Assembly: GCF_029239295.1 (NCBI RefSeq)
Contig: NZ_JAQZBC010000006.1
Coordinates: 62,001-126,000, forward strand
Reading direction: 5' to 3'
Source of the DNA: Sphingomonas sp.
GTDB taxonomy: Bacteria; Pseudomonadota; Alphaproteobacteria; Sphingomonadales; Sphingomonadaceae
Length of the DNA: 64,000 nt
The position numbers and the translations under genes were made by a program. Below, in pieces: positions 22,054 through 37,174 of the stretch (position 1 is its first letter; the number at the start of each line of letters is the position of its first letter). The notes below the pieces were generated by a model, which did no database searches, was not told where the DNA came from, and was given only the letters and a program-made list of their open reading frames with translations.

Positions 22054-22064
22054 GGATCTCGCTT

Positions 22065-23588: not shown

Positions 23589-23614
23589 TCGACACCCCTT
23601 CTTCGGAGATGCCG

Positions 23615-24151
23615 ATGAGCGATCCAACAATCGCCGAACGGGCGTTCGCCAACATGGTGACCGCTACGAGGGCTCCGCCCAGCTTTGACGGGCAAGGCTG
23701 GCTCGTCGCGCTGAACCTCTTTGCGATGACGGCTGGCTTCTGCCTTACCGTCATGCTCGCGGGCAAGATCGTCCGGGACATGAGGCGCAACCGGTATCGG
23801 GATAAGCTTCGCGAGCCGGTGACCATATTGCGTCTGACCGTGCTGGCCTTCGCGTTTGCTGGCGTTCTGCGCTTCGGCGGTGAGGCTGCCGCACTGTGGG
23901 GCTGGAACCCTGCCGATCCTTCTGCGACGGCAGCGGCGACGCTGGCGAAGCGCCTGCTCGATCCGTTCGCAGCGGGGCTCGCCTGGCTTGGGTTCGGCCT
24001 GTTCGTGCTCGCCGAGCGCGGCATCATCGACCAGCTGCGCAAGCAGCCCTTTCCGATCAACATGTGGGCCAGCCTGGAGCAGCTCAAGCGCCCCGCGATC
24101 GTCGTGGCGCTTTGCTTCGTCGCTGCCGTTGGAGTGGTTAGCACGCGATGA
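23615..24151 (+). CDS. Phage membrane protein with four predicted TM segments (lysis region)
   Basis: A 178-residue integral membrane protein at the head of the lysis cassette. Hydrophobic segments are visible near residues 30-52 (LVALNLFAMTAGFCLTVMLA), 68-90 (ILRLTVLAFAFAGVLRF), 115-132 (GLAWLGFGLFVLAE) and 157-175 (IVVALCFVAAVGVVS). ATG 23615 is preferred to ATG 23609 because GGAG at 23605-23608 gives six-base spacing. Its stop overlaps the next membrane protein gene (ATGA), so the two may form a holin/antiholin or holin pair. I do not recognise a named family. Confidence 0.65.
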   Translation: MSDPTIAERAFANMVTATRAPPSFDGQGWLVALNLFAMTAGFCLTVMLAGKIVRDMRRNRYRDKLREPVTILRLTVLAFAFAGVLRFGGEAAALWGWNPADPSATAAATLAKRLLDPFAAGLAWLGFGLFVLAERGIIDQLRKQPFPINMWASLEQLKRPAIVVALCFVAAVGVVSTR

Positions 24152-24606
24152 TCATCGAGCGCGGGGCCGGTGCGGCCGCAACTGGTTTGCTCGCCGTGGG
24201 CGCAGCAACCGCAGCTCAGCCGGCAACGGCGAGCTTCTTCGGAATGCCCTTTGAGATCGCCACCGCCATCGCCGCAATGTTCGGCTGCATCGTGACGCGG
24301 GTCATCGTCGGCCAGTCCGACAAGGTGTCCCGCTGGCGGGTTCGCGTGCCGATCGACGTTCTATCGGGCGGCGTGACGTTCTTCCTCGTCGTTGCGACGC
24401 GACCCTCGCTGCTGACGGCGCTGGTGCTGGGCATCACCGTCGCCGCACTGGGCGCCTCGATCATCAAGATCGCGGAGGTGCGCGGCCGGAAGCTGATCGA
24501 CGCGCTGTTGCCTGGCGGCGTGGGTGACGACGATCACGAAGCCGGCATCGCCCGGGCGATGGATCAGCTCCACCGCATCCCCGATCCCGAGAAACACTCC
24601 GGCTGA
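24148..24606 (+). CDS. Holin-like phage membrane protein
   Basis: A 152-residue protein with hydrophobic stretches near 10-25, 33-50 (FEIATAIAAMFGCIVTRVIV) and 70-105 (GGVTFFLVVATRPSLLTALVLGITVAALGASIIKI), then a charged cytoplasmic tail ending DPEKHSG. Such a two-to-four TM protein with a charged C terminus directly upstream of an endolysin is the expected layout of a holin that triggers lysis timing. The start is in the ATGA overlap with the preceding membrane protein. Holin identity rests on position and topology. Confidence 0.65.
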   Translation: MIIERGAGAAATGLLAVGAATAAQPATASFFGMPFEIATAIAAMFGCIVTRVIVGQSDKVSRWRVRVPIDVLSGGVTFFLVVATRPSLLTALVLGITVAALGASIIKIAEVRGRKLIDALLPGGVGDDDHEAGIARAMDQLHRIPDPEKHSG

Positions 24607-24610
24607 GGAC

Positions 24611-24652
24611 GGCGCCTTACCCCGCCGTAGTGACACAGGTGGGCAAGGCGCC
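24611..24652 (+). repeat. Inverted repeat upstream of endolysin
   Basis: GGCGCCTT (24611-24618) is the perfect inverse of AAGGCGCC (24645-24652), with further partial pairing inside the 26-base loop. It sits in the 128-base gap between holin-like and endolysin genes. There is no T-tract, so an mRNA structure controlling endolysin translation or stability is as likely as termination. Confidence 0.4.
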
Positions 24653-24734
24653 GCGGCGGCCGACGGGACGAAGCCCGCGGCCGCACACCCACGCCCTCCG
24701 CCATCCTGACACCCAACACAAGGAAAGAACGATC

Positions 24735-25244
24735 ATGGCATCCGAACCGGCGTGGCTGCTTGCCGCGCGGGCTAAGCTCGGCACGCGCGAAGCGCCGGGC
24801 AACGCCAACAATCCGACGATCATGGGATGGGCGAAGCGGCTCGGCACGAAGGTGCTGGGCGTCGCGTACAACGCCGATAGCGTGCCCTGGTGCGGTGTGT
24901 TCGTCGCCGCCTGCCTGGCAGAAGACGGGATCGAGGCTGCCCCGATCGCGGTGCGCGCAAAGGCATGGGCTACGTGGGGCCAGAACATTCGGCCTGAACG
25001 GGTCGCGCCGGGCGCTGTGCTGGTGTTCGAGCGGCCCGGCGGCGGGCACGTCGGCTTCTACGTCGGCGAGGATCAAGCCGCTTATCACGTGCTGGGCGGC
25101 AACCAGGGCGATCGCGTCTCGATCATGCGGATCGAGAAGGCCCGCTGCATTGCCCGGCGCTGGCCAGCGGGTCGGCCCGTGCTTGGCGGACCCAAAGCTA
25201 TGACGGCGACCGCCGGCATTCCTCTGTCGAGGAACGAGCGGTGA
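24735..25244 (+). CDS. Endolysin-like cysteine peptidase (TIGR02594/CHAP-type)
   Basis: A 169-residue peptidoglycan hydrolase of the NlpC/P60-CHAP group, TIGR02594-like. The catalytic cysteine is in VPWCGVFVAACL near residue 54 and the histidine in GGGHVGFYVGED near 103; LGTREAPGNANNPTIMGW near the N terminus is typical of this family in alphaproteobacterial phages. There is no signal peptide, so it needs the holin for release. AAGGAAAG stands 9 bases before ATG 24735. The 3' end overlaps the spanin GTG. Confidence 0.88.
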   Translation: MASEPAWLLAARAKLGTREAPGNANNPTIMGWAKRLGTKVLGVAYNADSVPWCGVFVAACLAEDGIEAAPIAVRAKAWATWGQNIRPERVAPGAVLVFERPGGGHVGFYVGEDQAAYHVLGGNQGDRVSIMRIEKARCIARRWPAGRPVLGGPKAMTATAGIPLSRNER

Positions 25245-25597
25245 GGCCGCTGCCACGCTGGGCGATCCTTACCGCCGCTGTCGTTCTGCTGCTTCTGGCC
25301 GGCCTTGCGGTGAGCCGCTGCGCCGCCCCCTCACCTAAGCAGCAGGCCGCGCAAGCCGTCGATCTCGATCGGTCCGAGGCCGCTGCCGTCGGATTCAACC
25401 GCGGCATGATCGCCGAGCGCGCGGCCACTGCCAATCAGCTGGAGCACGATCACGCGTTCCGGAACAGCCAAGAGGAACTGATCGATGCGGCTCGCGAAGC
25501 GGACAATGGCTCTGGTGTCGGCCCTGCTACTGCCAGCGTGCTTGAGCGCATGCGCCAGCAACAAGCCGCGGGTCGTCGTGATGGTGCCGCCCGCTGA
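25241..25597 (+). CDS. Rz-like inner-membrane spanin
   Basis: A 118-residue i-spanin candidate. One N-terminal TM segment (WAILTAAVVLLLLAGLAV, about 7-24) is followed by a periplasmic region rich in Ala, Gln and Glu with coiled-coil character (RMRQQQAAGRR near the end). It starts at GTG 25241 inside the endolysin stop region. The Rz1-like lipoprotein begins within its 3' part in another frame. Together they would bridge the periplasm and fuse inner and outer membranes in the last step of lysis. Confidence 0.75.
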   Translation: MRPLPRWAILTAAVVLLLLAGLAVSRCAAPSPKQQAAQAVDLDRSEAAAVGFNRGMIAERAATANQLEHDHAFRNSQEELIDAAREADNGSGVGPATASVLERMRQQQAAGRRDGAAR

Positions 25598-25751
25598 GCG
25601 GCTGACGTGCGCGCCAGAACCGGCAGTGCCGCCAGTGATCAGCGATCGGAGTACTGCCGATTATATCGTGTCGCTGGCTGGCGCGGGGGCGGACTGCCGA
25701 TCGGCCGTTCGGTGGTTGCGCGATTGGGCCGCTCGCGTAGGAAAGCAGTAG
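25485..25751 (+). CDS. Rz1-like outer-membrane spanin lipoprotein
   Basis: An 88-residue lipoprotein encoded in the +1 frame relative to Rz, sharing 25485-25597 with it. MRLAKRTMALVSALLLPACLSAC is a signal peptide with two possible lipobox cysteines, LPAC and LSAC. The mature part contains a Pro-rich VVMVPPAERLTCAPEPAVPPV segment, as in other Rz1 proteins. Partly overlapping Rz/Rz1 genes are well known in phages, and this supports both calls. It is the last recognisable phage gene. Confidence 0.75.
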   Translation: MRLAKRTMALVSALLLPACLSACASNKPRVVVMVPPAERLTCAPEPAVPPVISDRSTADYIVSLAGAGADCRSAVRWLRDWAARVGKQ

Positions 25752-25860
25752 TTTTTGCGAGCTCGTTTGGGTCACGCCGAGTCTTTGGCGCAACGAGCCG
25801 ATATCGTGCCCGGCTGCCCTGGTTCAGGATGAGGTGAGGCGGTGCGTCGGTAGGTGTGAG

Positions 25861-25885
25861 GGAACCCACCAGCCTGCCCCGCATT
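25861..25885 (+). promoter_or_regulatory. Possible EcfG-type promoter
   Basis: GGAAC (25861-25865), a 16-base spacer and CATT (25882-25885) differ by one base from the GGAAC-N16-CGTT general stress promoter of alphaproteobacteria. It stands 30 bases before the small ORF at 25916. A single near match could be chance. Confidence 0.25.
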
Positions 25886-25915
25886 GTGCACGCGCTTAGT
25901 GTTGAAGCGTAATCA

Positions 25916-26062
25916 ATGTATCCTGAACTCGTCTATTTTGATGGGGCGCATTTTGCCCACATCGTGACCCGCGAAGAACACCTGAGGCTCAAACGCAGAT
26001 CTACGTCTAGCCGGCAGTCGCGCGCCTCGAGCCGTCCCCCGTTCGTGCTCGCCGCGGCGTGA
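25916..26062 (+). CDS. Small ORF of 48 residues, unknown
   Basis: Too short for the ORF track. It reads MYPELVYFDGAHFAHIVTRE and continues EHLRLKRR before a Ser/Arg-rich tail. The first 27 residues look protein-like, balanced in hydrophobic and charged residues, while the tail does not, so it may be a real small protein or the 5' remnant of a longer broken gene. A weak GAAG and a possible EcfG-type promoter lie upstream. It marks the first non-phage sequence after the spanins. Confidence 0.4.
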   Translation: MYPELVYFDGAHFAHIVTREEHLRLKRRSTSSRQSRASSRPPFVLAAA

Positions 26063-26215
26063 CCCGCTAGGTCATGAAGATAGTAGCCGCAGCAGTCCAA
26101 TCGACGCTGGCAGACTGGTATTCGACAAGCGGGACCCCATCTCCCATGCACGCTATTCGTCTTGTCCGGGCCCACCGGATAGCCAGCACTTCTCTCGACC
26201 CGAGAGAGACCGATC

Positions 26216-26740
26216 ATGCCTACCATCATCTCTTCGTTTCAGCGCGATGCCGAGGCGAGCGCTCTGGCGAGCTCGACGTCGAACGATCCCGCTCAGCTGA
26301 TGGCTCATCGCGACCTTCAACATGACTATGAGGATCAGGCAAAGATCGCGGTGTCGGTCTCCAAAGAGACTGCCCGAACGGCGGCCGTGAGGTTGTTCAG
26401 CAAGGGGATCGCGCTCCTTTTTTCCCGTCAGATCCTCGCACGTCCCGCTGATGAGCCCCCCAATTCCTCCAGCCCATACATTAGTGTCGGGGATGAGAGC
26501 CGCGCGGATTGGGCGGGCGAGGAAAGGTACATTCTGGGACGAGAAGAGCTGTCGAAATTCAATGCTCTGCACGCGAAGTCCGCGTCAGCGAGGCACGCCC
26601 ATGGAGCCCTGGCGCTGGCGTATGGCCGAGCGCTTGAAGAGGGGGCATTCCCCGGTGTCCGAGCAGATCCGCGCGACCCTCGGCAGCGCTCAAGCTCCGC
26701 ACTGGACGGCTGGGAGAACGAGGGCGGCAGCAACAGGTGA
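26216..26740 (+). CDS. Hypothetical protein, 174 residues
   Basis: An ORF with a purine-rich GAGAGAGACC upstream of ATG 26216. The first 70 residues, beginning IISSFQRDAEASALASSTSN, are helical-looking; the last 40 (GVRADPRDPRQRSSSALDG) are Arg/Ser-rich and look like noncoding read-through. An overlapping + frame (26451-26804) and a minus frame (26428-26865) are also open. I recognise no family; it may be a degraded gene at the edge of the prophage. Confidence 0.35.
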   Translation: MPTIISSFQRDAEASALASSTSNDPAQLMAHRDLQHDYEDQAKIAVSVSKETARTAAVRLFSKGIALLFSRQILARPADEPPNSSSPYISVGDESRADWAGEERYILGREELSKFNALHAKSASARHAHGALALAYGRALEEGAFPGVRADPRDPRQRSSSALDGWENEGGSNR

Positions 26741-26844
26741 AGCGCCAGCGGCAGATGCCGTCGTCCCAGCTTTCTTCCATGTCGTGCTCCCTGTGAGAGG
26801 GTAACGTATGCGGAGCGTGGCATGTAGGAAGCGCGGCGGTTGGT

Positions 26845-26887
26845 AAAAAAAATGCCCGGCGGCATTCAGCTAGAAGCTCGCCGGGCA
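26845..26887 (-). terminator. Intrinsic terminator for minus-strand small genes
   Basis: TGCCCGGCG (26853-26861) pairs with CGCCGGGCA (26879-26887), a 9 bp stem with a 17-base loop; on the minus strand it is followed directly by eight T (26852-26845). This is a strong terminator and shows that the small minus-strand ORFs at 26967-27204 are transcribed. Confidence 0.7.
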
Positions 26888-26966
26888 GTCTCTTCGCGCT
26901 CGCCCCCAGGGGGAGGGAGCTGCATCTGAGATCACAGACCTGCCAGCTTGGCGCACCTGAGGAGAA

Positions 26967-27071
26967 CTACGTAGGCCCTTGGGAGCGCTCGCCCATAACC
27001 CACACCGCGACAGCCAATGCCACCAGCATCCCTAAGAACCCGATCAGGAAGCGGCGGTCGAGATCCTCAAT
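26967..27071 (-). CDS. Possible 34-residue membrane peptide with ATT start
   Basis: Directly after the 45-residue ORF the minus strand encodes IEDLDRRFLIGFLGMLVALA followed by VAVWVMGERSQGPT and a stop codon, a clear single TM helix. The only upstream start in frame is ATT (27071-27069), which overlaps the previous TGA; a stop codon stands three codons before it, so the choice is ATT, an internal CTG, or the internal ATG (LVALAV onward). The strong terminator downstream favours a real transcript. Confidence 0.3.
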   Translation of the reverse strand: MEDLDRRFLIGFLGMLVALAVAVWVMGERSQGPT

Positions 27072-27204
27072 GCAGCATCATGCTGCGGCGCTCCGCCTCG
27101 GCAACGATCGCGTCGGCCTCGGGATCGCCGGGCTGCATGGTCGTGCGGAGATAGGCGGCTTCAAGCTCTTCGTCGGTGAGGCTGGCGAGTATGTCGGCGT
27201 CCAT
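27067..27204 (-). CDS. Small acidic protein of 45 residues
   Basis: Below the ORF-track size limit. It reads MDADILASLTDEELEAAYLR and ends in EAERRSMMLH, strongly acidic and helical, with normal codon use for this genome. The start is ATG at 27204-27202 with a GAAAAG-type purine stretch just upstream (TAGAAAAGATG). It is followed by a membrane-peptide ORF and a strong terminator, giving a two-gene mini operon. I recognise no named family. Confidence 0.6.
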   Translation of the reverse strand: MDADILASLTDEELEAAYLRTTMQPGDPEADAIVAEAERRSMMLH

Positions 27205-27302
27205 CTTTTCTATCCTCTACCGATCATGAAGCGGAGTCGAGGGCCTCATTGGTGCCGATCTGGTCGGGCGGACGTTTGCATTCAAACAGCAAGGTATTTC
27301 CC

Positions 27303-27461
27303 GTGGATCAACGCACCACCATCGCTTACATCCTGATGGCCGTCATGGCAGCGGGCATCACGGCCGTCATATGGTATGCTCGCCAGAACAACGCACGCCG
27401 ACGTGCATCCCGCATTCGCTCAGCTGATCTTCAGCGCCATAGCGCCAGAGTCAAAGAATAG
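27303..27461 (+). CDS. Small single-TM protein, 52 residues
   Basis: From GTG 27303 it reads VDQRTTIAYILMAVMAAGIT, then AVIWYARQNNARRRASRIRS, a TM helix with a basic cytoplasmic tail. AAGG lies about 10 bases upstream. The ORF track begins earlier at 27249, but those residues look like noncoding sequence. Function unknown. The intergenic DNA to the next gene (27462-27606) shows nothing else I can name. Confidence 0.5.
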   Translation: MDQRTTIAYILMAVMAAGITAVIWYARQNNARRRASRIRSADLQRHSARVKE

Positions 27462-27606
27462 CAGGATTACAGGCTGACGATCCGGTTGGCAGCGTTACGC
27501 AGGATCACCCGCAGACTGAGGCAAACGCCGGATCGAGATCGAAGGCTCTTCGTTCAGGCCGTCTGAATCGCGTCGTCACCCGAAACCTAAAGGCAAGGAG
27601 CTTCTC

Positions 27607-28098
27607 ATGGCTGCAAAAACGCTCGAAACGCTGTTCCACGACACGCTCAGGGACATCTACTACGCTGAGCGCAAGATCCTCAAGTCACTCCCCAAGATGG
27701 CCCGCGCAGCGCAGTCTGAGGAATTGAAAGCGGCATTCCAGAAGCACAAGGACCAGACTGAGGGCCAGATCGAACGACTTCAGCAAGTGTTCGAGATCAT
27801 TGGCAAGCCGGCACGTGGAAAGACCTGCGACGCGATCGAGGGCATTCTCGCCGAAGGCGAGGAGATCATGGAGGAGTACAAGGATACTCCCGCGCTCGAC
27901 GCCGGCCTGCTCGCGGCTGCCCAGGCGGTCGAGCATTATGAAATCACGCGCTATGGCACACTGAAGCGGTGGGCAACGGTGCTGAAGCTCAACGATGCCG
28001 TGAAGCTGCTGGACGAAACGCTTCAAGAAGAGTCTCAGACCGATGAAGACCTCACCACGATTGCAGACGCTACCGTGAACGCCGAAGCACTGGCGTAA
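27607..28098 (+). CDS. Ferritin-like DUF892 (YciE/YciF family) protein
   Basis: A 163-residue four-helix ferritin-like protein. LETLFHDTLRDIYYAERKIL near residues 5-24 is the family signature, and the metal-ligand type residues recur as Glu/His in HKDQTEGQIERLQQVF, AVEHYEITRY (near 115) and ETLQEESQTDEDL (near 140-152). YciE/F proteins are stress-induced in many proteobacteria; the reaction is not established. A strong ribosome site (AAGGAG, 9 bases before ATG) is present. Hairpins follow the stop codon. Confidence 0.92.
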   Translation: MAAKTLETLFHDTLRDIYYAERKILKSLPKMARAAQSEELKAAFQKHKDQTEGQIERLQQVFEIIGKPARGKTCDAIEGILAEGEEIMEEYKDTPALDAGLLAAAQAVEHYEITRYGTLKRWATVLKLNDAVKLLDETLQEESQTDEDLTTIADATVNAEALA

Positions 28099-28104
28099 GA
28101 CTGT

Positions 28105-28179
28105 GCCGCGCTATCACGCTTTCTGAGCGCGGCCCACTTGGTCTTATTAGAAGGCTGGTGAATAAACTCACCGGCCTTC
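28105..28179. terminator. Two hairpins between convergent DUF892 and ATPase genes
   Basis: GCCGCGCT/AGCGCGGC (28105-28112 with 28126-28133) and GAAGGCTGGTGA/TCACCGGCCTTC (28150-28161 with 28168-28179, one G-T pair, six-base loop) lie just after the DUF892 stop. The second is a long compact stem, but neither has a strong T-tract. They probably act as a bidirectional terminator between the convergent genes. I see no convincing gene in the rest of 28180-28439. Confidence 0.5.
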
Positions 28180-28439
28180 TTCGACTTCAGGGCGGCTCCG
28201 CTTGAACCGCGTTTTTCAGCCAGCGAGGCAGCCAAAGCAGTAGTCGTGGGCGCCTCTCGCGAGCGATAGCTCGCTAGTCGATTGGAGCTGCCGCACCCGC
28301 GGCCAGTGTTCCCCCCTCCCCTGTAAGCCATTGATATTCTATAGGCGGCGTTGTGCCCTAGATGGGCAAGACCCATTGGTTTGCTTGGACATTTTTGGTC
28401 CACGACGAAAGCGTGAGGTTCAGCAGGTCGAACCTGCAG

Positions 28440-29708
28440 TTACGCCGACGCGCCGGGTGCCAGGTGGTCAGTAGCCCACTTCATATAAAAGAGTAGGAAT
28501 GGATCGGTAATGATGAGCGCATCCTCGCTCTCGACCCATTCGAGTGGCGGTTCGCCCTCGATCTTTTCTCGGGCGACCTTGCTCATGTTGCTGAGCGCTG
28601 AAGTGATCTCATGCTTTGCCGGCATGGAACCGGGTTTAAGCAAGCCCTGTAGCGCTACGCGAAGATCCTCGTACTCGGTGCGCTGCTGAGGGCCCAATGC
28701 CGCGAGAGCCGTCAGGATTGCAGAGTACTTATCTTGACTACGTCCGTCCTTAAACTCGCGTAGCATCCGCTTTTTCTTCGCATCGGGACCCTGCCGCAGC
28801 TTGCTATATTTCGGAAACCCTTTGCTCTTGGCGATTTCAGCAAGCGCAGCATCTAGCTCGCCAACTACAATCTCTTGCTTTACGACTGCACGTGACGAGA
28901 TGCCGCTGGCGATACAAAGCTCGCTGCAGATTTCCTGAACCAATAACGGGTTGCCGAAACCCTCTTCGCAAATCTTCTTGTTCAAGCCTGGATCGTTGGT
29001 GACATTGAGCGCGTCGAAACCGCGACTGGGTATCTGCAGAAGATCATCCAAGTCCCACGGCGGGATCTCCACGTGCTTGAAGCGCCCCTCGAGTTCCTGT
29101 TCGACAGTCATCGGATCGAACGCCCGGTGGGGAACGGCGAGAAGAATAACCGCCAAACCTTTGAACACAGCGCCCTTCAGTGCCCGAATAATCGCGCGCT
29201 GTACGCTTTTGTCGATGTAGTGGAAGTCATCGACCAAAAGGGACACGTCACGTTCAACCAGGGAATCGAGCGCGGCCCGTTGCGTGTTGATCGTGTATGT
29301 AACGGAGCGCTCGTGAGTTTTCCCTTGAGCTGACCCGCTTCGGACGCTTGCTTTCACTCCGGGTATTGATCCCTCGAGCACGGCTTCGTCGGTGGCCGTA
29401 CCAGTTCCTGCGACCTTGCGGGACCTCTGCGATCCCACTTCCAAGGTGTAGGCGATCTGTTCCCAAAAGTCCTCTTCGGACTTAACCTGTCCTCCCTCGA
29501 TCGTGACACTATCGCCGGTCTGATCAAGGACGTGATTGCATAGGACGGTCTTGCCGGACTTGGTCGATCCGGTGACCACGTTTATCGAGTATCCTCGACT
29601 AAGCGCATCTTTGACGCGCTTCTCTAGACCTAGGTGCTCGCGGCTGACGTAGGTGATTGATGGCTGCCCGCCGGGCGTGAAAACTTCCTTGAGCTTCAGT
29701 GTCTTCAT
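28440..29708 (-). CDS. Orphan AAA+/ExeA-like ATPase, accessory
   Basis: A 422-residue P-loop ATPase of unknown function. Walker A GSTKSGKT lies at residues 47-54 and Walker B SLLVDDF at 156-162; a sensor-like LLAVPHRAFD follows near 190. The arrangement, with an N-terminal REHLGLEKRVKDAL helix before the P-loop, resembles ExeA/TniB-type AAA proteins. The C-terminal 150 residues are helical with a basic KKKRMLREFKDG stretch. ATG 29708 is preferred because AGGCGAAAAC precedes it; the track start adds 26 odd residues. Lower GC than the host genes suggests transfer. It may serve a transposition-like, signalling or defence role; nothing in sequence decides. Confidence 0.75.
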   Translation of the reverse strand: MKTLKLKEVFTPGGQPSITYVSREHLGLEKRVKDALSRGYSINVVTGSTKSGKTVLCNHVLDQTGDSVTIEGGQVKSEEDFWEQIAYTLEVGSQRSRKVAGTGTATDEAVLEGSIPGVKASVRSGSAQGKTHERSVTYTINTQRAALDSLVERDVSLLVDDFHYIDKSVQRAIIRALKGAVFKGLAVILLAVPHRAFDPMTVEQELEGRFKHVEIPPWDLDDLLQIPSRGFDALNVTNDPGLNKKICEEGFGNPLLVQEICSELCIASGISSRAVVKQEIVVGELDAALAEIAKSKGFPKYSKLRQGPDAKKKRMLREFKDGRSQDKYSAILTALAALGPQQRTEYEDLRVALQGLLKPGSMPAKHEITSALSNMSKVAREKIEGEPPLEWVESEDALIITDPFLLFYMKWATDHLAPGASA

Positions 29709-30030
29709 GTTTTCGCCTGCCTTGCCGCGCCGCGCCAACTCTGGAGCAGCCGTGCGATAACGGCAAGCGCTAGACCAGGCGCTCACGCGTGCCCGTTCGG
29801 CCCCAGCGATTCCCGCGTGTTTCCCGACCGCTAGTCCTCTGGCTGGTATCGCGCCACAGGCGCTAGTGATCGGTCCAAAAGGTTAGACATGCGGCGCGGG
29901 ACTGCGCAGAACCGCGTGCCTCATTAGTGGCATGTTAGACGGGCCATGCGGTTGAAATTTCGCCTTTATGCAAGGCCCGGTCGGGCCTCCACATGAAGCC
30001 TCCCGCAGCTTTGAGCGCGCCGAAGACGGG
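29709..30030. other. Gene-free stretch with three CGCTAG copies and a hairpin
   Basis: No ORF is supported here. CGCTAG occurs at 29768, 29829 and 29861, notable because CTAG is usually rare in bacteria; the copies lie upstream of the minus-strand ATPase gene and could be operator sites. AGGCCC/GGGCCT (29973-29988) forms a 6 bp hairpin with a four-base loop after the 207-residue gene and may be its weak terminator. Confidence 0.35.
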
Positions 30031-30654
30031 TTAGTAGGATAGCTTACGATAATCGGCTAGGCGCACGGTCTTCTTGCTAAAGAGTGCGAGCAACTTACGC
30101 CGTACTTCTCGCTGCTTGGCTCCCTTTCGCGCCACCGACGGCGTGAAGACGGAGGCATGTGCCGGCTTGTCAGGGAGCGCCGTGTCGTAAACCATGCACA
30201 TGCGCTCACTGCCGTCCTCGAAGACAAGCGAGCGGAGATCACCCGCGCTAGTCTGCATCACAAGCTGAATTCCTCTTTCCTGAGGAGGCAACTTCGAAGC
30301 GCCGGTGGCTTTAATCGCATTAATGGCTGCTTGTAGCTCACTGTCCTGAGCCAGGGCCTCGCGAAACAAAGATAAGTCTATCGTTGTAGCATCTTGAAAG
30401 GCCAGCGGACTAATGACTCCAGTCACAGGGTCGAGATGTATCGGGTCCACAATGAACTTGGTGAGAAGTTCATTGTCTTCTACGCGGCCCGGTGAATGCC
30501 CGCTAATGCTCTCGGCTTCGCACTCTCCTTTGCTATACGCTGCATATACTGCGTCTTGTAAGCCCGCGCCCCTTAAGCATAACTCGCCAAATATGATCGC
30601 GCATGAGGGCTTGCTGGGTTGTTCGGCTTGATCCACGCCGGATCCCTCAATCAT
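30031..30654 (-). CDS. Cassette gene 3: hypothetical protein, 207 residues
   Basis: Last gene of a three-gene minus-strand operon; its start overlaps the stop of the preceding gene by ATGA. The central DNELLTKFIVDPIHLDPVTG, then VISPLAFQDATTIDLSLFRE pattern resembles small proteins with a DNE-L-R...H-D..TG.I.P.AF.D....SV.R layout that I have seen in sporadically distributed cassettes; I cannot name the family. The C terminus is very basic (KGAKQREVRRKLLALFSKK), suggesting nucleic-acid or partner binding. GC is low relative to the flanks. Function unknown. Confidence 0.75.
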   Translation of the reverse strand: MIEGSGVDQAEQPSKPSCAIIFGELCLRGAGLQDAVYAAYSKGECEAESISGHSPGRVEDNELLTKFIVDPIHLDPVTGVISPLAFQDATTIDLSLFREALAQDSELQAAINAIKATGASKLPPQERGIQLVMQTSAGDLRSLVFEDGSERMCMVYDTALPDKPAHASVFTPSVARKGAKQREVRRKLLALFSKKTVRLADYRKLSY

Positions 30655-31205
30655 TTCCGATTGTTGAGATATGCAGAGGCTAGAGCCCAGGCGACGCCCT
30701 CAGGAAGACCTACATCAGGCATGTCTTCTTCGTTGTCGACCTGAGGTCGACCTTTGACCTCGATCAGGTAACCGACTTTTCCGTCTTCAAGAATCTCAAT
30801 GTCGGCGTACAGTTTTTCGTCGGACCAAAACAAACCCGTGCGGCCGTCAGCGCCAACACTGGCCATTGGAATGGGGAACGGGAGATTGCGCAAGCGCTTA
30901 ATCAGCTCAACAGTCGCATCGACGGCTTCCTTCACAGGCGGGCAAGAGCCGGGGCCGGCCCAGCCGGGCTCGACATTCTTCATTCGATACAATCGACGAA
31001 GTTGGCGATCAGCTGGCATTTCAGAAACGGCATGATATGCGGACGTGTCTACGATTGTTCCTCCATTAAGACTGAAGGAGGCCGAACGCGCGGCCGCGGT
31101 GCACGTCTTCGCCCACGCGTCTGTAAACTGCTTGAGTCCCGTGATGTTCGAGGCTGCCAGCGACGTCTCACCGTTTTTATCGATAATCTGATTTGATTGC
31201 GTCAT
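30651..31205 (-). CDS. Cassette gene 2: hypothetical protein, 184 residues
   Basis: Middle gene of the cassette, three bases after gene 1 and overlapping gene 3 by four bases. Visible pattern: LYRMKNVEPGWAGPGSCPPV near residues 71-90, VELIKRL, then ASVGADGRTGLFW near 116-128 and LYADIEI near 133. This GW-G-GS-P...DG-GLFW layout occurs in a family of uncharacterised accessory proteins, often near TIGR04255 genes as far as I recall. The first 50 residues are Ser/Ala/Thr-rich. No catalytic motif is apparent. Lower GC than surrounding host genes suggests horizontal transfer. Confidence 0.75.
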   Translation of the reverse strand: MTQSNQIIDKNGETSLAASNITGLKQFTDAWAKTCTAAARSASFSLNGGTIVDTSAYHAVSEMPADRQLRRLYRMKNVEPGWAGPGSCPPVKEAVDATVELIKRLRNLPFPIPMASVGADGRTGLFWSDEKLYADIEILEDGKVGYLIEVKGRPQVDNEEDMPDVGLPEGVAWALASAYLNNRK

Positions 31206-31208
31206 CTA

Positions 31209-32018
31209 TCAGCACCCAATCGCAGCGAGGTAATCATCGCTAAGCACTTGGGCTAAAATGGTCTTTTGGAACTCGTGAAGGTTCTTTATTAGATCTCCAA
31301 CAATCTCGGCCTCACGCCCCCGCTCGACTAAAAGGGGCGGCTGACCCTCTACGTCAAACATATCACCTGTAAGCACCGTTAGATCCGCCACGCGTCTCAC
31401 TATGTTATGAGGGGCTCGAGCTTGGTCAGCTACAGTTACGTTGACGTTAACGAGGCGCCGCCGCATCGGGGACTGTGGGATGAAAACACCGAAATGCGAG
31501 TGCCAAGGCTGGTCAGACGCACGATCGTACATCGTAACCCACCTAGTTCCTTCACGGAACACCTCCCCTGCAGGAGGATTACCCTCCACTGCCAAGAAAA
31601 CGTCTTCGTACTGCAGAAGAACAGACGCAATCGCTGGCACTGTTCCAAGATAAACTGGAACGAGGGCAAGCGCGACCTTACTGGCAAAATCGAAGAACCC
31701 AGACCAGCTGTCATACTTGCGAACTGTGAGGGTGAGCGCCTGCATTTCACACTTCAGCTCGGCTTCGATCTGACCGTCCGTTGCGAACCTTTGAAACGAG
31801 ACGCCCACGGGGAGGTTCGTAGGTATGCCCGAACCAAACACGAATTGCGGCATAACCTGCTGCTGCCTTCCCGGCAGCCCGTTTTCCGTTGCAAGCGCTG
31901 CTGCCTGCACCGTCAGGGCTTCGAAAGTTGGAGCATCAATTGGCGTCACAAACCGGATCACCAAAGCGCAGCTTTCGATCGCGTTGTGCCCGGCGAGCGG
32001 TTCAAACGACAGGGTCAT
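31209..32018 (-). CDS. Cassette gene 1: TIGR04255-like protein
   Basis: A 269-residue protein whose layout matches the sporadically distributed TIGR04255 family: an N-terminal CALVIRFVTPIDAPTFEAL strand-helix, GVSFQRFATDGQIEAELKCE, LTVRKYDSWSGFFDFASKV near residue 110, then ALVPVYLGTVPAIASVLLQYEDVF and a C-terminal LVERGREAEIVGDLIKNLHE helix. Function of the family is unknown. I chose ATG 32018 because a TTGACA-type -35 at 32071 would put the transcript start just upstream; ATG 32036 has AAAGGA abutting it with no spacing. It heads an operon with the two following genes. Confidence 0.7.
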   Translation of the reverse strand: MTLSFEPLAGHNAIESCALVIRFVTPIDAPTFEALTVQAAALATENGLPGRQQQVMPQFVFGSGIPTNLPVGVSFQRFATDGQIEAELKCEMQALTLTVRKYDSWSGFFDFASKVALALVPVYLGTVPAIASVLLQYEDVFLAVEGNPPAGEVFREGTRWVTMYDRASDQPWHSHFGVFIPQSPMRRRLVNVNVTVADQARAPHNIVRRVADLTVLTGDMFDVEGQPPLLVERGREAEIVGDLIKNLHEFQKTILAQVLSDDYLAAIGC

Positions 32019-32065
32019 CGGCTCGCATTCTCGCATTCCTTTGTTCGATCGCAAGCGCGTCGTGC

Positions 32066-32097
32066 TGTCAACGCGCCACATGCGCCGCCATATGGCG
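32066..32097 (-). promoter_or_regulatory. Possible promoter and palindrome upstream of the three-gene cassette
   Basis: On the minus strand TTGACA (32071-32066) is followed 17 bases later by TCGAAC, a poor -10, giving a start about 15 bases before ATG 32018. Just upstream lies the perfect 12-base palindrome CGCCATATGGCG (32086-32097), which could bind a dimeric regulator. Confidence 0.35.
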
Positions 32098-32313
32098 ATG
32101 ACACGCGTTTCGGCAAACTTTCATCGCTGCCTGAACCGGGATGCGGTTGGAAGCAAGGCCGGCGTCGGAGTGAGCGCTGACGTCAACTGTCTTGCCTTTG
32201 AGCCCGGCGCAGAACGCGGGCGAGATCCCGGCTGCTTTTTGGATCTTACAGGTCCTTTGCAACTACGGCCGCGATAGCGAGCGAGGTAGCAATCTGGTCG
32301 ATAACGTTTTCAC

Positions 32314-32379
32314 CTATCGCCTCTGCCGCTTTGATCCCCGTAGGATCGCCTCCAAAGCTTCCTCAGTACTCGCGTCCAT
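32314..32379 (-). CDS. Possible 21-codon ORF with strong ribosome site
   Basis: MDASTEEALEAILRGSKRQR then R and a stop codon, preceded by GGGGGGAG five bases before ATG. It could be a leader peptide or the end of a decayed gene; the same frame continues upstream through the 11-base repeats. It is flanked by otherwise empty DNA (32098-32544), in which I see no other gene. Confidence 0.25.
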   Translation of the reverse strand: MDASTEEALEAILRGSKRQRR

Positions 32380-32403
32380 CGTCTCCCCCCACAGCCGGCC
32401 AGT

Positions 32404-32436
32404 CCGGTATCGCACCGGTATCGCACCGGTATCGCA
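32404..32436. repeat. Three perfect tandem copies of an 11-base repeat
   Basis: CCGGTATCGCA repeats exactly at 32404, 32415 and 32426, about one helical turn apart, so a protein could bind all copies on one face. It lies 25 bases upstream of the 21-codon ORF and about 370 bases upstream of the three-gene cassette, and just past the 3' end of the 179-residue gene. Iteron-like operator or replication-type site are both possible. Confidence 0.6.
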
Positions 32437-32544
32437 AACGATCATATTCAGGCCGCGGTAACAAGCCGAATGGTGCAGCGTCTCTCGGTGATTGAGGTTT
32501 AGGTGCAGGATTGGGAGCAATCGCACTGCAGTGCGCAGGGGTAC

Positions 32545-33084
32545 TCAGCCAGATCGCCTCGTTGCCCTGAGGCTCGCTTGGGCGTCCGCCTCTACGTCCC
32601 CGAGCAGCCGTTCCCACCAAGCGATTGCGCGCGAGAGTGCTTCATTGCGAGTGAGGACCTCGGCGCCAACGAGTAGATCGTCCGCTTCATCGTCCGTGCC
32701 TCGCGGCTCGAGAACGTATTCGTCGGACTTGTACTCCTTCAGTAGTAGGTTGCGCTCGCGCTCAATGAAGTCGTGAAACACATCGTCTGCCCTCGATCCG
32801 GCTTGAACCCTCCTCCACTGACTCTTCACTGCGTCGCGGAGGTGATCGCTTCTTTCCCCGTCTACCTTGGCGAGAACATGCCCGACCGAGCGCAGCAAAA
32901 CCAGCACAGTGAACCAGCGTAACCGGCGCTCCAAAGGCGTCGTGGCGGACCGAAATTCCCTGGCCGCGTGGTGGCAGTCGCGCAGCACTCGACGAGCTGC
33001 CACCGCATCAGCTCTTGCGCCAAAAGGATCGTTGCGGTCGGTGCGGAACTGTCGCTCGCCGCGGTTCGGGAAGGTCTTAGCCAT
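32545..33084 (-). CDS. Hypothetical helical protein, 179 residues
   Basis: An all-helical, Arg-rich protein. The core RWFTVLVLLRSVGHVLAKVD near residues 56-75 and FHDFIERERNLLLKEYK near 103-119 form a pattern I associate with uncharacterised HEPN-like or abortive-infection-type proteins, but the R-x3-H spacing is shorter than the RX4-6H HEPN motif, so I do not assign an RNase function. AAGG six bases before ATG 33084 and a TATATA box nearby support the start. It closes the accessory region; the next gene is typical host. Confidence 0.65.
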   Translation of the reverse strand: MAKTFPNRGERQFRTDRNDPFGARADAVAARRVLRDCHHAAREFRSATTPLERRLRWFTVLVLLRSVGHVLAKVDGERSDHLRDAVKSQWRRVQAGSRADDVFHDFIERERNLLLKEYKSDEYVLEPRGTDDEADDLLVGAEVLTRNEALSRAIAWWERLLGDVEADAQASLRATRRSG

Positions 33085-33330
33085 ATGCGACCTTATATAG
33101 GTTCAAGATCAGCCCTACGCTTCGGCCTTGAGCCAATTACGTTCTTGGCGTGTTCCCTTCACCCGCTCCATCGATATTCAACGATCTTCTCCGAGTACGC
33201 GCCAGGCCGGTGCGGTAAAAGTGCGGTAGATAACCGTTGGACCGTCGGCGAGCTCCCTCCGCGTTGCGCAGGGCGGTAAAGCCAAGTTCCCCGCCCCGCT
33301 CAGATAGCCACGGTTCAGCTTCGCGGCTCT

Positions 33331-34164
33331 ATGCGCGCGGCGATGTTTACGCGTACTCTGATCACCGCCGGCTCGCTCCTGGCCGCTTCCCCCGCCCTTG
33401 CTTGGGGGGCCAACGGCCACCGCATTACCGGCGCCATCGCCGAACAGAATTTAAGCGGGCTGGCGAAGGCCAATGTGCAACTGCTGATAGGATCCGAAAC
33501 CCTTGCGGAAGCCGCGACGTGGCCGGACGACATGAAGTCGGACCCCGCACCGTTCTGGCAGAAGACTGCCAGCCCGTGGCACTATGTCACCGTTGCTGCC
33601 GGCGACATCTACAAGCCCAGCATGGCGCCTGCCGACGGAGACGCCATCACCGCGCTCACCAGATTCACGGCAACGCTGCAGGATCCCACCGCCGGTCTTG
33701 AGGACAAGCGTATTGCCCTGCGCTTCGTCGTTCACATCATTGGCGATTTGCATCAGCCGCTTCATGTCGGCCGCGGAAACGACCGCGGAGGGAATGACAC
33801 CTCCGTGGCGTTCTTCAACCGGCCGACCAATCTGCATTCTCTCTGGGATTCCGGGCTGATCGAGCAGAAGCAGTTGTCATTCTCGGAATATGCGAGCTTC
33901 CTCTCGCGTTCGATCACGCCGGAGAATGTTGTTGCGTGGAGTGATCCGCGCCCCGGCACCTGGATGACCGAAAGCGTAAAGCTAAGAGAGCAAATCTACC
34001 CGCAGGATCCAAAACTCTCCTGGTCGTACGCATACCAACACCGTTCCGCTCTCGATGAGCGCCTCAAACAGGCGGGCGTGCGCATTGCAACTTACCTGAA
34101 CTGGTTGTTCGCCCCCGGCGACCCTCGCAAGCTGTCGAAATCACCCTTGCTGTTTGCAGAATAG
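33331..34164 (+). CDS. S1/P1-type secreted nuclease
   Basis: A zinc-dependent single-strand nuclease/3'-nucleotidase exported to the periplasm. The signal peptide ends SPALA, leaving Trp as residue 1 of the mature protein, as the family requires for zinc binding (WGANGH). The other ligands are visible: Asp in ATWPDDM, His in SPWHYV, HxxxD and His in VHIIGDLHQPLH, and His/Asp in LHSLWDSG. Total length is 277 residues. The start may be ATG 33331 or 33343; neither has a strong ribosome site. The 246 bases upstream hold nothing I can name beyond two GTGCGGTA copies near 33210-33226. Confidence 0.9.
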   Translation: MRAAMFTRTLITAGSLLAASPALAWGANGHRITGAIAEQNLSGLAKANVQLLIGSETLAEAATWPDDMKSDPAPFWQKTASPWHYVTVAAGDIYKPSMAPADGDAITALTRFTATLQDPTAGLEDKRIALRFVVHIIGDLHQPLHVGRGNDRGGNDTSVAFFNRPTNLHSLWDSGLIEQKQLSFSEYASFLSRSITPENVVAWSDPRPGTWMTESVKLREQIYPQDPKLSWSYAYQHRSALDERLKQAGVRIATYLNWLFAPGDPRKLSKSPLLFAE

Positions 34165-34313
34165 TGGCCTTGGGCTTTCGGTAGAAAGCCTACGCTTCGA
34201 AGCGGGCAAGCACATCGGGCACCGTGCCGATTAGCGTCCCAATGACGATTTGCACTGCCGCCTTCTCTCGCCGATGATCAGCCCGCGCCGCCCCCAACAG
34301 CAAAGGCTCTTTG

Positions 34314-34811
34314 ATGCTCCACTCCCTTCACCCGCTTGCGCAACAAGCAGCTGCGCTGCTGAGCCAGGATCGTCAGACCATTGCAGTTGCCGATGGCGCG
34401 ACCGGCGGGTTGATCCTTGCAGGGTTGCTGACGGTGCCGGGCGCGACACGCTTCTGTCGGGGCGGCGGCGTGGTCTATTCGATGAAGGGACGCGATGTCC
34501 TGCTCGGGCTGCCGCGCGCCGAACTGGCCGGAATGGAATCCGTGACGGAAGCCTATGCGCTATTACAGGCTCGCGGCATCCGCGATCGATTCGGTGCCGA
34601 TTGGGGGATCGCGGAAACAGGCTCCGCTGGCCCCGATCAGCATCCGCGCGGTGCGCCTGCCGGGCGCAGCTGCATTGCTGTTGTGGGGCCCGATGTGGCG
34701 ATCGCGACGACCGTTGACACCGCGTCCGCGGACCGGATCGCCAACATGGAGGCGTTCGCCCAGGCAGCGCTGACCTTCCTTGTCGCTACACTGGAAGGCC
34801 AAACCGCCTGA
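34314..34811 (+). CDS. CinA C-terminal domain protein with altered motif
   Basis: A 165-residue CinA/PncC-like protein; family members deamidate nicotinamide mononucleotide in pyridine nucleotide salvage. The fold pattern is kept: TGGLILAGLLTVPGATRFCRGG, YSMKGRDVLLGL, AETGSAGP and GRSCIAVVG. However the usual AESCTGG active-site motif reads ADGATGG, losing the conserved Glu and Ser, so activity is doubtful. ATG 34314 has AAAGG nine bases upstream. It ends 25 bases before the convergent glycosylase gene. Confidence 0.8.
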   Translation: MLHSLHPLAQQAAALLSQDRQTIAVADGATGGLILAGLLTVPGATRFCRGGGVVYSMKGRDVLLGLPRAELAGMESVTEAYALLQARGIRDRFGADWGIAETGSAGPDQHPRGAPAGRSCIAVVGPDVAIATTVDTASADRIANMEAFAQAALTFLVATLEGQTA

Positions 34812-34836
34812 TGCCTGCGCCGCGCGGCGGCTCACC

Positions 34837-35496
34837 TCAGCCGTCGCGGCAGGCCAGCGCTCGTTCGAACACCGCCTCGAACATCGGCGCGGTCAGCCGC
34901 CCGGTGTTCTGATTGTAGCGCGAACAATGGTAGCTATCGATCAGCAAGCGCCCGTCCGGCATGCGATGCTCCGCCAGATGGCCGAACTTCGCCTTGGGCA
35001 AGCGACCGCCGAGTGCCTTTACCGTCGACTGATGGGCAATCTGGCCCAGCGCGACGAATACCTTGGCCTTGGGCAATGCAGCGATGGGTGCTTCCAGGAA
35101 GGGTCGGCAGGTGCGAATTTCCTCAGGCGTCGGCTTGTTCTCGGGCGGGAGGCAGCGCACCGCGTTGATGAGCATCGCCCCGCGAAGCTGCAGCCCGTCG
35201 TCCGGCCGTGCATCAAACCGTCCTTCGCTCAGGCCGTATTTATCCAGCGTGGCATACAGCAACTCGCCCGCATAATCGCCAGTGAACGGCCGGCCGGTGC
35301 GATTCGCGCCATGCTTCCCCGGCGCCAGCCCGACGATCACCAACCAGGCATCGGGATCGCCAAACGCCGGGACCGGAGCATTCCACCACGTCGGATATTC
35401 GGCCTGCAGCGCGTGGCGGAAGGCGGCAAGACGCGGACACAAGGGGCAATCATGGGGCGGTTCAGTGGCGGGCAAGGCGGAGAGTGCGTGATCCAT
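34837..35496 (-). CDS. Uracil-DNA glycosylase, family 5 (UdgB-type)
   Basis: Removes uracil and other deaminated bases from DNA. The 219-residue protein has an iron-sulfur cluster type cysteine set (DCPLCPRL, AVRCLPP, IRTCRPF), the motif GLAPGKHGANRTGRPFTGD near residue 60 and the C-terminal YHCSRYNQNTGRLT, which is typical of family 5 rather than family 4 enzymes. ATG 35496 starts a normal N terminus; the ORF track extension of 54 residues is read-through across folK. The gene diverges from folK with only 23 bases between start codons. Confidence 0.9.
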   Translation of the reverse strand: MDHALSALPATEPPHDCPLCPRLAAFRHALQAEYPTWWNAPVPAFGDPDAWLVIVGLAPGKHGANRTGRPFTGDYAGELLYATLDKYGLSEGRFDARPDDGLQLRGAMLINAVRCLPPENKPTPEEIRTCRPFLEAPIAALPKAKVFVALGQIAHQSTVKALGGRLPKAKFGHLAEHRMPDGRLLIDSYHCSRYNQNTGRLTAPMFEAVFERALACRDG

Positions 35497-35519
35497 CGCG
35501 GTGCGATAGGCGCAGTGGC

Positions 35520-36026
35520 ATGATGCGCTCAACCTATGTCGTGGGAATTGGGTCGAACCGGCGCGGCGTTCATGGGTCGCCCGCGGCGGAAGTTGCAGCC
35601 GCGCTGGCCGCGCTGCCCGGTCGCGTGATCGATGTCGCGCCGATCTTCCCCACCGCACCGCTCGGCCCTTCCATCAGGCGATACGCCAATACCGCGGCCG
35701 TGCTGGAGAGCGAGCTCGCGCCGGGCGACCTGCTGCACCGGCTGAAGACGATCGAGCACACCTTCGGCCGCCGGCGCGGCCAGCGCTGGGGCGCCCGCGT
35801 GATCGATCTCGACATCCTGTTGTGGTCAGGCGGAACCTGGGAAGAGCCAGGCCTGATCGTCCCCCACACCGCTTTTCGCACCCGTGATTTCGTGCTGGGT
35901 CCGCTCGCCAGGGTCGTGCCCGGCTGGCGGGATCCGATCAGTGGATTGACTGTGCGACACCTCAATGCCCGGTTGACCCGCCGCCGCGCTCTGCCTAGGC
36001 GCAGCGGCGCTGGTGAGGGTCCGTAG
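35520..36026 (+). CDS. folK: HPPK, folate biosynthesis pyrophosphokinase
   Basis: Transfers pyrophosphate from ATP to 6-hydroxymethyl-dihydropterin in folate synthesis. The 168 residues show VGIGSNRRG at the N terminus, LKTIEHTFGRRRGQRWGARVIDLDIL near residues 72-101 (the family signature) and VPHTAFRTRDFVLGPLARV near 115-133. Start is ATG 35520 or the adjacent ATG 35523. The stop codon TAG (36024-36026) lies inside the tRNA-Lys gene, so the two overlap by ten bases and probably share a transcript. Confidence 0.92.
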   Translation: MMRSTYVVGIGSNRRGVHGSPAAEVAAALAALPGRVIDVAPIFPTAPLGPSIRRYANTAAVLESELAPGDLLHRLKTIEHTFGRRRGQRWGARVIDLDILLWSGGTWEEPGLIVPHTAFRTRDFVLGPLARVVPGWRDPISGLTVRHLNARLTRRRALPRRSGAGEGP

Positions 36027-36092
36027 CTCAGTTGGTAGAGCAAGCGACTTTTAATCGAGAGGTCCCGGGTTCGAGCCCCGGCGGACCCACCA
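36017..36092 (+). tRNA. tRNA-Lys (TTT anticodon)
   Basis: A 76-base tRNA with 7 bp acceptor stem GGGTCCG/CGGACCC, D-stem GCTC/GAGC, anticodon loop CTTTTAA (anticodon TTT), T-arm CCGGG-TTCGAGC-CCCGG, discriminator A and encoded CCA. The anticodon stem AGCGA/TCGAG has only three Watson-Crick pairs next to the loop; the two outer positions are A-G and G-A. Its first ten bases code the last residues and stop codon of folK. Confidence 0.95.
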
Positions 36093-36172
36093 GCGCCTCC
36101 CCGCGCCACCTAGTTCGTGCCCCGCTTCGAACGCGGATCGGCTAGCGACGATCGCTTGTCCGCGCGGGCTTA

Positions 36173-37174
36173 TCAGTCGGCGCACACCTCATATTCGGGG
36201 CTACCAGTGTCTTCGAACGCACTGACATTCCCGATCGTCGTTTCCGCGATGGTCGTCATCGCATCGACGGTGAAGAATGCCTGGTGGCCGGTGACGAGCA
36301 CGTTGGGAAAGGTGAGCAGCCGCGCAAACACATCGTCCTGGATCATGCTGTTGGACAGGTCGTTGAAGAACATGCCCCCTTCCTCCTCATAGACATCGAG
36401 GCCAAGCGTCCCGATCGCGCCCGACTTCAACCCGTCGATCGCCGCGCGCGTATCGATCAGCGCGCCGCGGCTGGTGTTGATTAGCATCACGCCGCGCTTC
36501 ATCCCGTCGATGGCCGCGCGATCGATCAGATGGTGGTTCGCGGAGGTCAGCGGGCAGTGCAGCGTCACGATATCGGACTGGCGCAACAGATCAGGCACCT
36601 CGACATAGCTGCCGCCCAGCGCTTCAAACGCGGGATTGCGCATGGGGTCGCTGCCCAACAGACGGCAGCCAAAACCGCTGAGGATGCGCGCGGTGGCCAT
36701 CCCGATCAGCCCGGTCCCGATGATCCCGGCCGTGCGGCCATGCATGTTGAACCCGATCAGGCCCTCAAGCGCGAAATTGCCCTCGCGCACCCGATCCCGC
36801 GCGCGATAGATTTTCCGGTTGAGCGACAGCATCAATGCCACCGTATGTTCCGCCACGGCTTCCGGCGAATAGGCGGGCACCCGCGCCACCATGAGGCCCA
36901 GCGCACGCGCGCGTGCCAGATCGACATTGTTGAACCCGGCGCTGCGCAGCGCCACCAGGCGGGTTCCACCGGCATGGAGGACCGACAAGGTATCGGCGTC
37001 CAGCTGATCGTCAACGAACGCGCAGACGCACCCCGCGCCAGCCGCAAGGCTCGCCGATTGTGCATCCAGCCTGGGCTCCAGGAAGGTCAGCGTATGCCGG
37101 CCACCCTGCGCCGCATTGGCCGCGGAAAGGAACGTACGATCATAGGCCTTGGCGCTGAAAACCGCGATCTTCAC
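36173..37174 (-). CDS. D-2-hydroxyacid dehydrogenase (D-lactate dehydrogenase type)
   Basis: An NAD-dependent dehydrogenase of 333 residues, closest in pattern to fermentative LdhA. The nucleotide-binding glycines are in GIIGTGLIGMATARIL near residue 150, the catalytic Arg in INTSRGALID near 235, Glu in LDVYEEEGG near 264 and His in VTGHQAFFT near 296. The N-terminal FSAKAYDRTFL matches LdhA proteins. It converts pyruvate to D-lactate or the reverse. The gene diverges from the P-type ATPase across a 301-base region. Confidence 0.9.
   Translation of the reverse strand: MKIAVFSAKAYDRTFLSAANAAQGGRHTLTFLEPRLDAQSASLAAGAGCVCAFVDDQLDADTLSVLHAGGTRLVALRSAGFNNVDLARARALGLMVARVPAYSPEAVAEHTVALMLSLNRKIYRARDRVREGNFALEGLIGFNMHGRTAGIIGTGLIGMATARILSGFGCRLLGSDPMRNPAFEALGGSYVEVPDLLRQSDIVTLHCPLTSANHHLIDRAAIDGMKRGVMLINTSRGALIDTRAAIDGLKSGAIGTLGLDVYEEEGGMFFNDLSNSMIQDDVFARLLTFPNVLVTGHQAFFTVDAMTTIAETTIGNVSAFEDTGSPEYEVCAD

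Follow-up and report, generated by a model that had tools for sequence, protein, structure and literature searches.

The 64,000-nt stretch of Sphingomonas sp. DNA analysed here (the window; assembly GCF_029239295.1, contig NZ_JAQZBC010000006.1, positions 62,001 to 126,000) contains a cassette of three genes, which we designate T, B and C, and outside it a neighbouring ATPase gene:

31209 to 32018, minus strand: gene T, an open reading frame of 269 aa, encoding a putative divergent TIGR04255-type head protein
30651 to 31205, minus strand: gene B, an open reading frame of 184 aa, with a GWxG/dGxxxLxW domain
30031 to 30654, minus strand: gene C, an open reading frame of 207 aa, probably related to PDC-M32B, with an N-terminal extension
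28440 to 29708, minus strand: an AAA ATPase gene, neighbour to the cassette, matching PADLOC PDC-S59 (E=8.6e-23) over nearly the full model

All three cassette genes are intact on the minus strand, and an in-frame ATG upstream offers T an alternative start that would extend it to 290 aa. The spacing, motifs and base composition described in the first-pass annotation hold on recount: the gap between T and B is 3 nt, and B overlaps C by 4 nt (ATGA); B contains GWAGPGS...DGRTGLFW; C contains DNELL...HLDPVTGVISPLAF and a basic C-terminus; and the G+C counts of 29/60 at 30781-30840 and 43/60 at 36901-36960 are both exact. The drop in G+C relative to the flanks that those counts were meant to illustrate is real, at 54.7% for the cassette vs about 66% around it. 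Measured against windows of cassette length lying outside 26-34 kb of the 64-kb stretch, the cassette has a G+C fraction of 0.547 vs 0.663 +/- 0.020 (z about -5.7), and no window of equal length within the 64 kb is as low. Third codon positions follow suit (GC3 of 0.58-0.59 in T, B and C, vs 0.75-0.86 in four flank genes), and the low-GC stretch extends beyond the cassette, over about 27-34 kb. No sigma-70-like promoter was found at the cassette, where terminator matches were no more frequent than expected by chance.

The ATPase gene, which starts 322 nt downstream of C, is the sole PDC-S59-type copy in this genome, and places a second candidate defence gene in the low-GC stretch, PDC-S59 being a phage-defence candidate. 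Upstream of T lies an ORF of 179 aa (32545-33084, minus strand) for which Pfam, NCBIfam, PADLOC and PHROGs gave no match. Comparison with congeneric genomes did not reveal a clean empty insertion site for the cassette, nor were direct repeats typical of integration found around it; the flank blocks, comprising UDG-folK-tRNA-Lys, an S1/P1 nuclease gene and a DUF892 gene, occur at separate places in those genomes. The five relatives compared show little DNA similarity to most of 18-28 kb. The region as a whole, positions 18200-36100 of the window, is variable and offers no clean insertion site.

None of the three proteins has a Pfam match, and T has none in PADLOC. TIGR04255, to which the layout of T had been likened from the sequence, is an NCBIfam subfamily of unknown function which goes unmentioned in the open-access literature that we searched. 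The likeness is genuine: T matches the model with E=5e-4 at positions 31-251 of 252, such that almost its whole length is covered, although the score of 19.9 bits lies under the curated cut-off of 30 bits. Other loci supply the intermediates. Window T aligns with the T protein of locus L064 (BLAST E=2e-13), which at 56.5 bits passes the cut-off, as does the T protein of L069/G811, and it aligns also with those of L035 (E=4e-10) and L146 (E=1e-10). Judged by these alignments, T is a divergent TIGR04255 relative, joined to the family by intermediates that score above the cut-off.

B points to a different catalogue entry, PDC-M32, a PADLOC phage-defence candidate made up of two genes, PDC-M32A and PDC-M32B. 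It matches the PDC-M32A profile (E=3e-4) and, on this match, is homologous to the C-terminal half of that protein; the full-length PDC-M32A arrangement, in which an N-terminal domain precedes the GWxG domain, is not present, since B covers profile positions 214-339 of 375 only. On the plasmid pAC1084_1 of Acetobacter persici (L031, 3911-5216), the position of C behind a B-domain gene is taken by a gene of the SspB family (a ClpXP adaptor), an assignment based on a Pfam match (E=2.5e-11) and on annotation.

Close-relative searches covered 100-150 genomes per protein (101-151), among which T and C were found in the window genome only, and window B was the sole credible B match. Genus-level B matches at L002 and L003 were attributed to chance, as they overlap other ORFs and have no T or C adjacent; an order-level match at L012 was set aside, and marginal class-level matches at L025, L027 and L028 were set aside as short stretches in ORFs of about 1000 aa, with E-values of 3e-4 to 8e-3. 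Single-protein tblastn searches of plasmids with window T, B and C, and pattern scans of genome contigs for the window proteins, likewise returned nothing. Because the window proteins are too divergent for direct searches, profiles were used, and searches with the PDC-M32A profile and then with B profiles recovered relatives across the order, class and phylum, including the same T-B-C order in distant Pseudomonadota. Among 32 B-anchored loci, 30 have C directly downstream in the same orientation, 16 have T directly upstream of B, and eight have B fused to the N-terminal domain of M32A. The C and B profiles were trained in part on the loci counted, which inflates their E-values; five loci outside the training of the C profile (L061, L071, L073, L074 and L080) still give E=3e-33 or better. 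The T-B junction is a 4-nt overlap in 8 of the first 10 cassettes. The T-B-C order recurs on a viral contig, and on a plasmid of Mycobacterium paragordonae, beside mobF, such that more than one phylum harbours the unit. Across 17 cassettes, pairwise distances for T, B and C are correlated with r=0.85-0.87, above all 5000 permutations, so T, B and C behave as a unit in their evolution. The fixed gene order and patchy distribution anticipated for the cassette were thus upheld by the profile searches and the survey of these 32 neighbourhoods: it was found in one of some 100-150 close relatives, yet occurs in other classes too. An IMG/VR contig (L151, 2789-3429) carries an intact C with B reduced to its C-terminal part and no T, and an integrase gene nearby.

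C has no direct match to the PADLOC M32B models, and its relationship to M32B runs through intermediates. Window C aligns with C of L035 (BLAST E=1e-10), and profile-profile comparisons connect the window-type clade with E=2e-6 to the other T-B-C clade and with E=9e-5 to that of M32B, which supports homology between C and PDC-M32B. With 11 sequences, AlphaFold gave a low-confidence model of window C (pLDDT 49). The model of a viral M32B relative, L077, attained a pLDDT of 96.5 and a pTM of 0.89, and predicts a compact alpha/beta domain with R10, S38 and H90 on strands beta1, beta2 and beta5. In the family alignment, the corresponding Ser (within LSLF) and His (within PAHAS) are invariant (29/29 each) and the Arg is present in 26/29, window C having Lys at this beta1 position. 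No enzymatic motif was identified in C. Foldseek comparison of the L077 model with PDB and BFVD gave no significant match to a known fold, and PDB sequence searches with T, B and C profiles yielded nothing meaningful and no solved relative.

Taken together, these relationships best describe the cassette as a three-gene PDC-M32 variant whose TIGR04255-type protein would stand in for the N-terminal half of M32A. B resembles the C-terminal half of M32A, C resembles M32B, and their order is kept; the window differs in lacking the M32A N-terminal domain, in having a separate TIGR04255-type gene before B, and in a C protein that falls below detection by the M32B models. Because a defining feature of PDC-M32 and one of TIGR04255 were each tested and neither was found in the cassette, we assign T-B-C to neither proper. 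The window genome additionally carries a complete, ordinary PDC-M32A/PDC-M32B pair on another contig (L016, contig C31, 4360-5941), and a single genome thus holds both versions of the B-C module.

TIGR04255 relatives also occur beyond the cassette. A TIGR04255-anchored survey recovered 19 loci in 18 of 200 genomes from the phylum, six of them plainly T-B-C cassettes; weak relatives of B or C occur at two or three others. In the remainder, T mostly heads short co-directional gene sets with different second and third genes. These include a family with an S-N-T-C-D motif at L135, L138 and L141 (L135 vs L141, E=3e-13), of which L137, where the second gene has an HTH_3 domain, may hold a distant member; a 123-aa protein behind T at L146 that appears HEPN-like by eye and has no profile match; a PemK gene at L136; and, elsewhere in the L134-L146 set, further downstream genes without matches. 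It had been proposed that homologues occurring singly in unrelated contexts, or clear assignment to a housekeeping pathway, would speak against a conflict or toxin-antitoxin-like module. The first holds in part, as some TIGR04255 relatives do occur without B and C, mostly still at the head of operons; the second did not emerge for T, B or C. As T heads operons in which the later genes vary, the design looks modular, and this small sample suggests a constant head joined to exchangeable downstream parts.

Relatives of the cassette genes often have known defence genes as neighbours or are carried on mobile DNA. At L067 and L073, M32A-M32B pairs are embedded in type I restriction-modification operons, with HsdM encoded on one side and HsdS on the other, and with the same layout by sequence at L071 and a partial one, cut at the contig end, at L068. 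Directly before B-C at L057 is an AbiLi-type ATPase gene (E=3e-77), a gene for a UvrD/GajB-like helicase begins 3 nt after M32B at L081, and T at L136 sits beside a DUF1156/HmaB-type methylase gene, with the PemK gene two genes on. Twelve viral contigs, some of them near-identical, carry M32B relatives, mostly partnered by M32A and otherwise by a B-domain protein. PDC-M32 has also been reported on prophages (PMC12429752). This adjacency is an observed association and not a measured enrichment. It is at that level that the conflict system suggested in the first-pass annotation gains support, from restriction-modification, AbiLi, GajB-like and PemK neighbours, from the viral contigs and plasmid, and from the PADLOC listing.

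A cassette that is conserved, sporadic, probably mobile, related to M32 and often beside defence genes is probably an anti-phage or conflict module. Our main reading, to which we attach a probability of about 0.5, is that T-B-C, as a variant of PDC-M32, constitutes a mobile conflict module of three proteins whose targets are most likely phages or plasmids. Under such a scheme, T would serve as a sensing or regulatory head and the B domain as an adaptor coupling T to C, and C would be an effector, kept inactive until it is released by a trigger such as the activity of a phage or plasmid. The part of T may be taken, in M32-type systems, by another N-terminal domain that is fused directly to B. 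A role in defence or genetic conflict in the wider sense, counting this reading together with a toxin-antitoxin alternative, is likely on circumstantial grounds, and more so than the specific module proposed.

That alternative would have C as a toxin and B, T or both as antitoxin or regulator, forming an addiction module for which phage defence is incidental. Small, tightly coupled and overlapping genes, patchy occurrence, mobility including the plasmid copy beside mobF, and TIGR04255 operons bearing a gene of the PemK toxin family (L136) or an HTH_3 second gene (L137) are all in keeping with it. However, T-B-C differs from toxin-antitoxin modules in its three genes, whose products show no fold recognised as that of a toxin or antitoxin, and neither Pfam nor any informative NCBIfam match links T, B or C to such a family; T exceeds the typical size of an antitoxin, and the PemK of L136 may simply form an ordinary pair with a 95-aa partner of its own. 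We consider this explanation unlikely, though the strongest of the competitors. Less probable still is that T and B bind substrates and pass them to a protease or chaperone, as adaptors in protein quality control. The SspB-family gene that follows a B-domain gene at L031 would fit, but this is one locus only, and the patchy, mobile and defence-adjacent pattern is unlike that of a quality-control gene. Equally improbable is that C is a minimal ADP-ribosyltransferase-like enzyme, since the Arg-Ser-His order, strand positions and conservation seen in the L077 model and alignment recall the catalytic residues of that superfamily, and a weak PDB match to 1s21 (AvrPphF ORF2; TM 0.37) is in line with it, but that match lacks significance (E=1.6, rmsd 12.7), window C has Lys for Arg, and the catalytic acid has no clear counterpart.

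Returning to the conflict module, the replacement of second and third genes in other TIGR04255 operons makes head and effector look interchangeable. A broader and more tentative proposal, possible rather than probable in our estimation, is that a large, as yet undescribed class of modular immune or conflict operons shares TIGR04255-type proteins as its head, each operon combining a constant sensor with an adaptor and a swappable effector, and with C representing a new fold; C/M32B, the S-N-T-C-D family, the HEPN-like protein and PemK-like proteins would then be among the exchanged effectors. TIGR04255, an orphan family whose name reflects nothing but its sporadic distribution, is now linked with a catalogued candidate, PDC-M32, through a concrete three-gene unit that pairs a probable adaptor with a probable effector bearing two invariant residues. 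If the swapping of heads and effectors is real, then many unannotated operons of Pseudomonadota, and at least one actinobacterial plasmid, would become interpretable.
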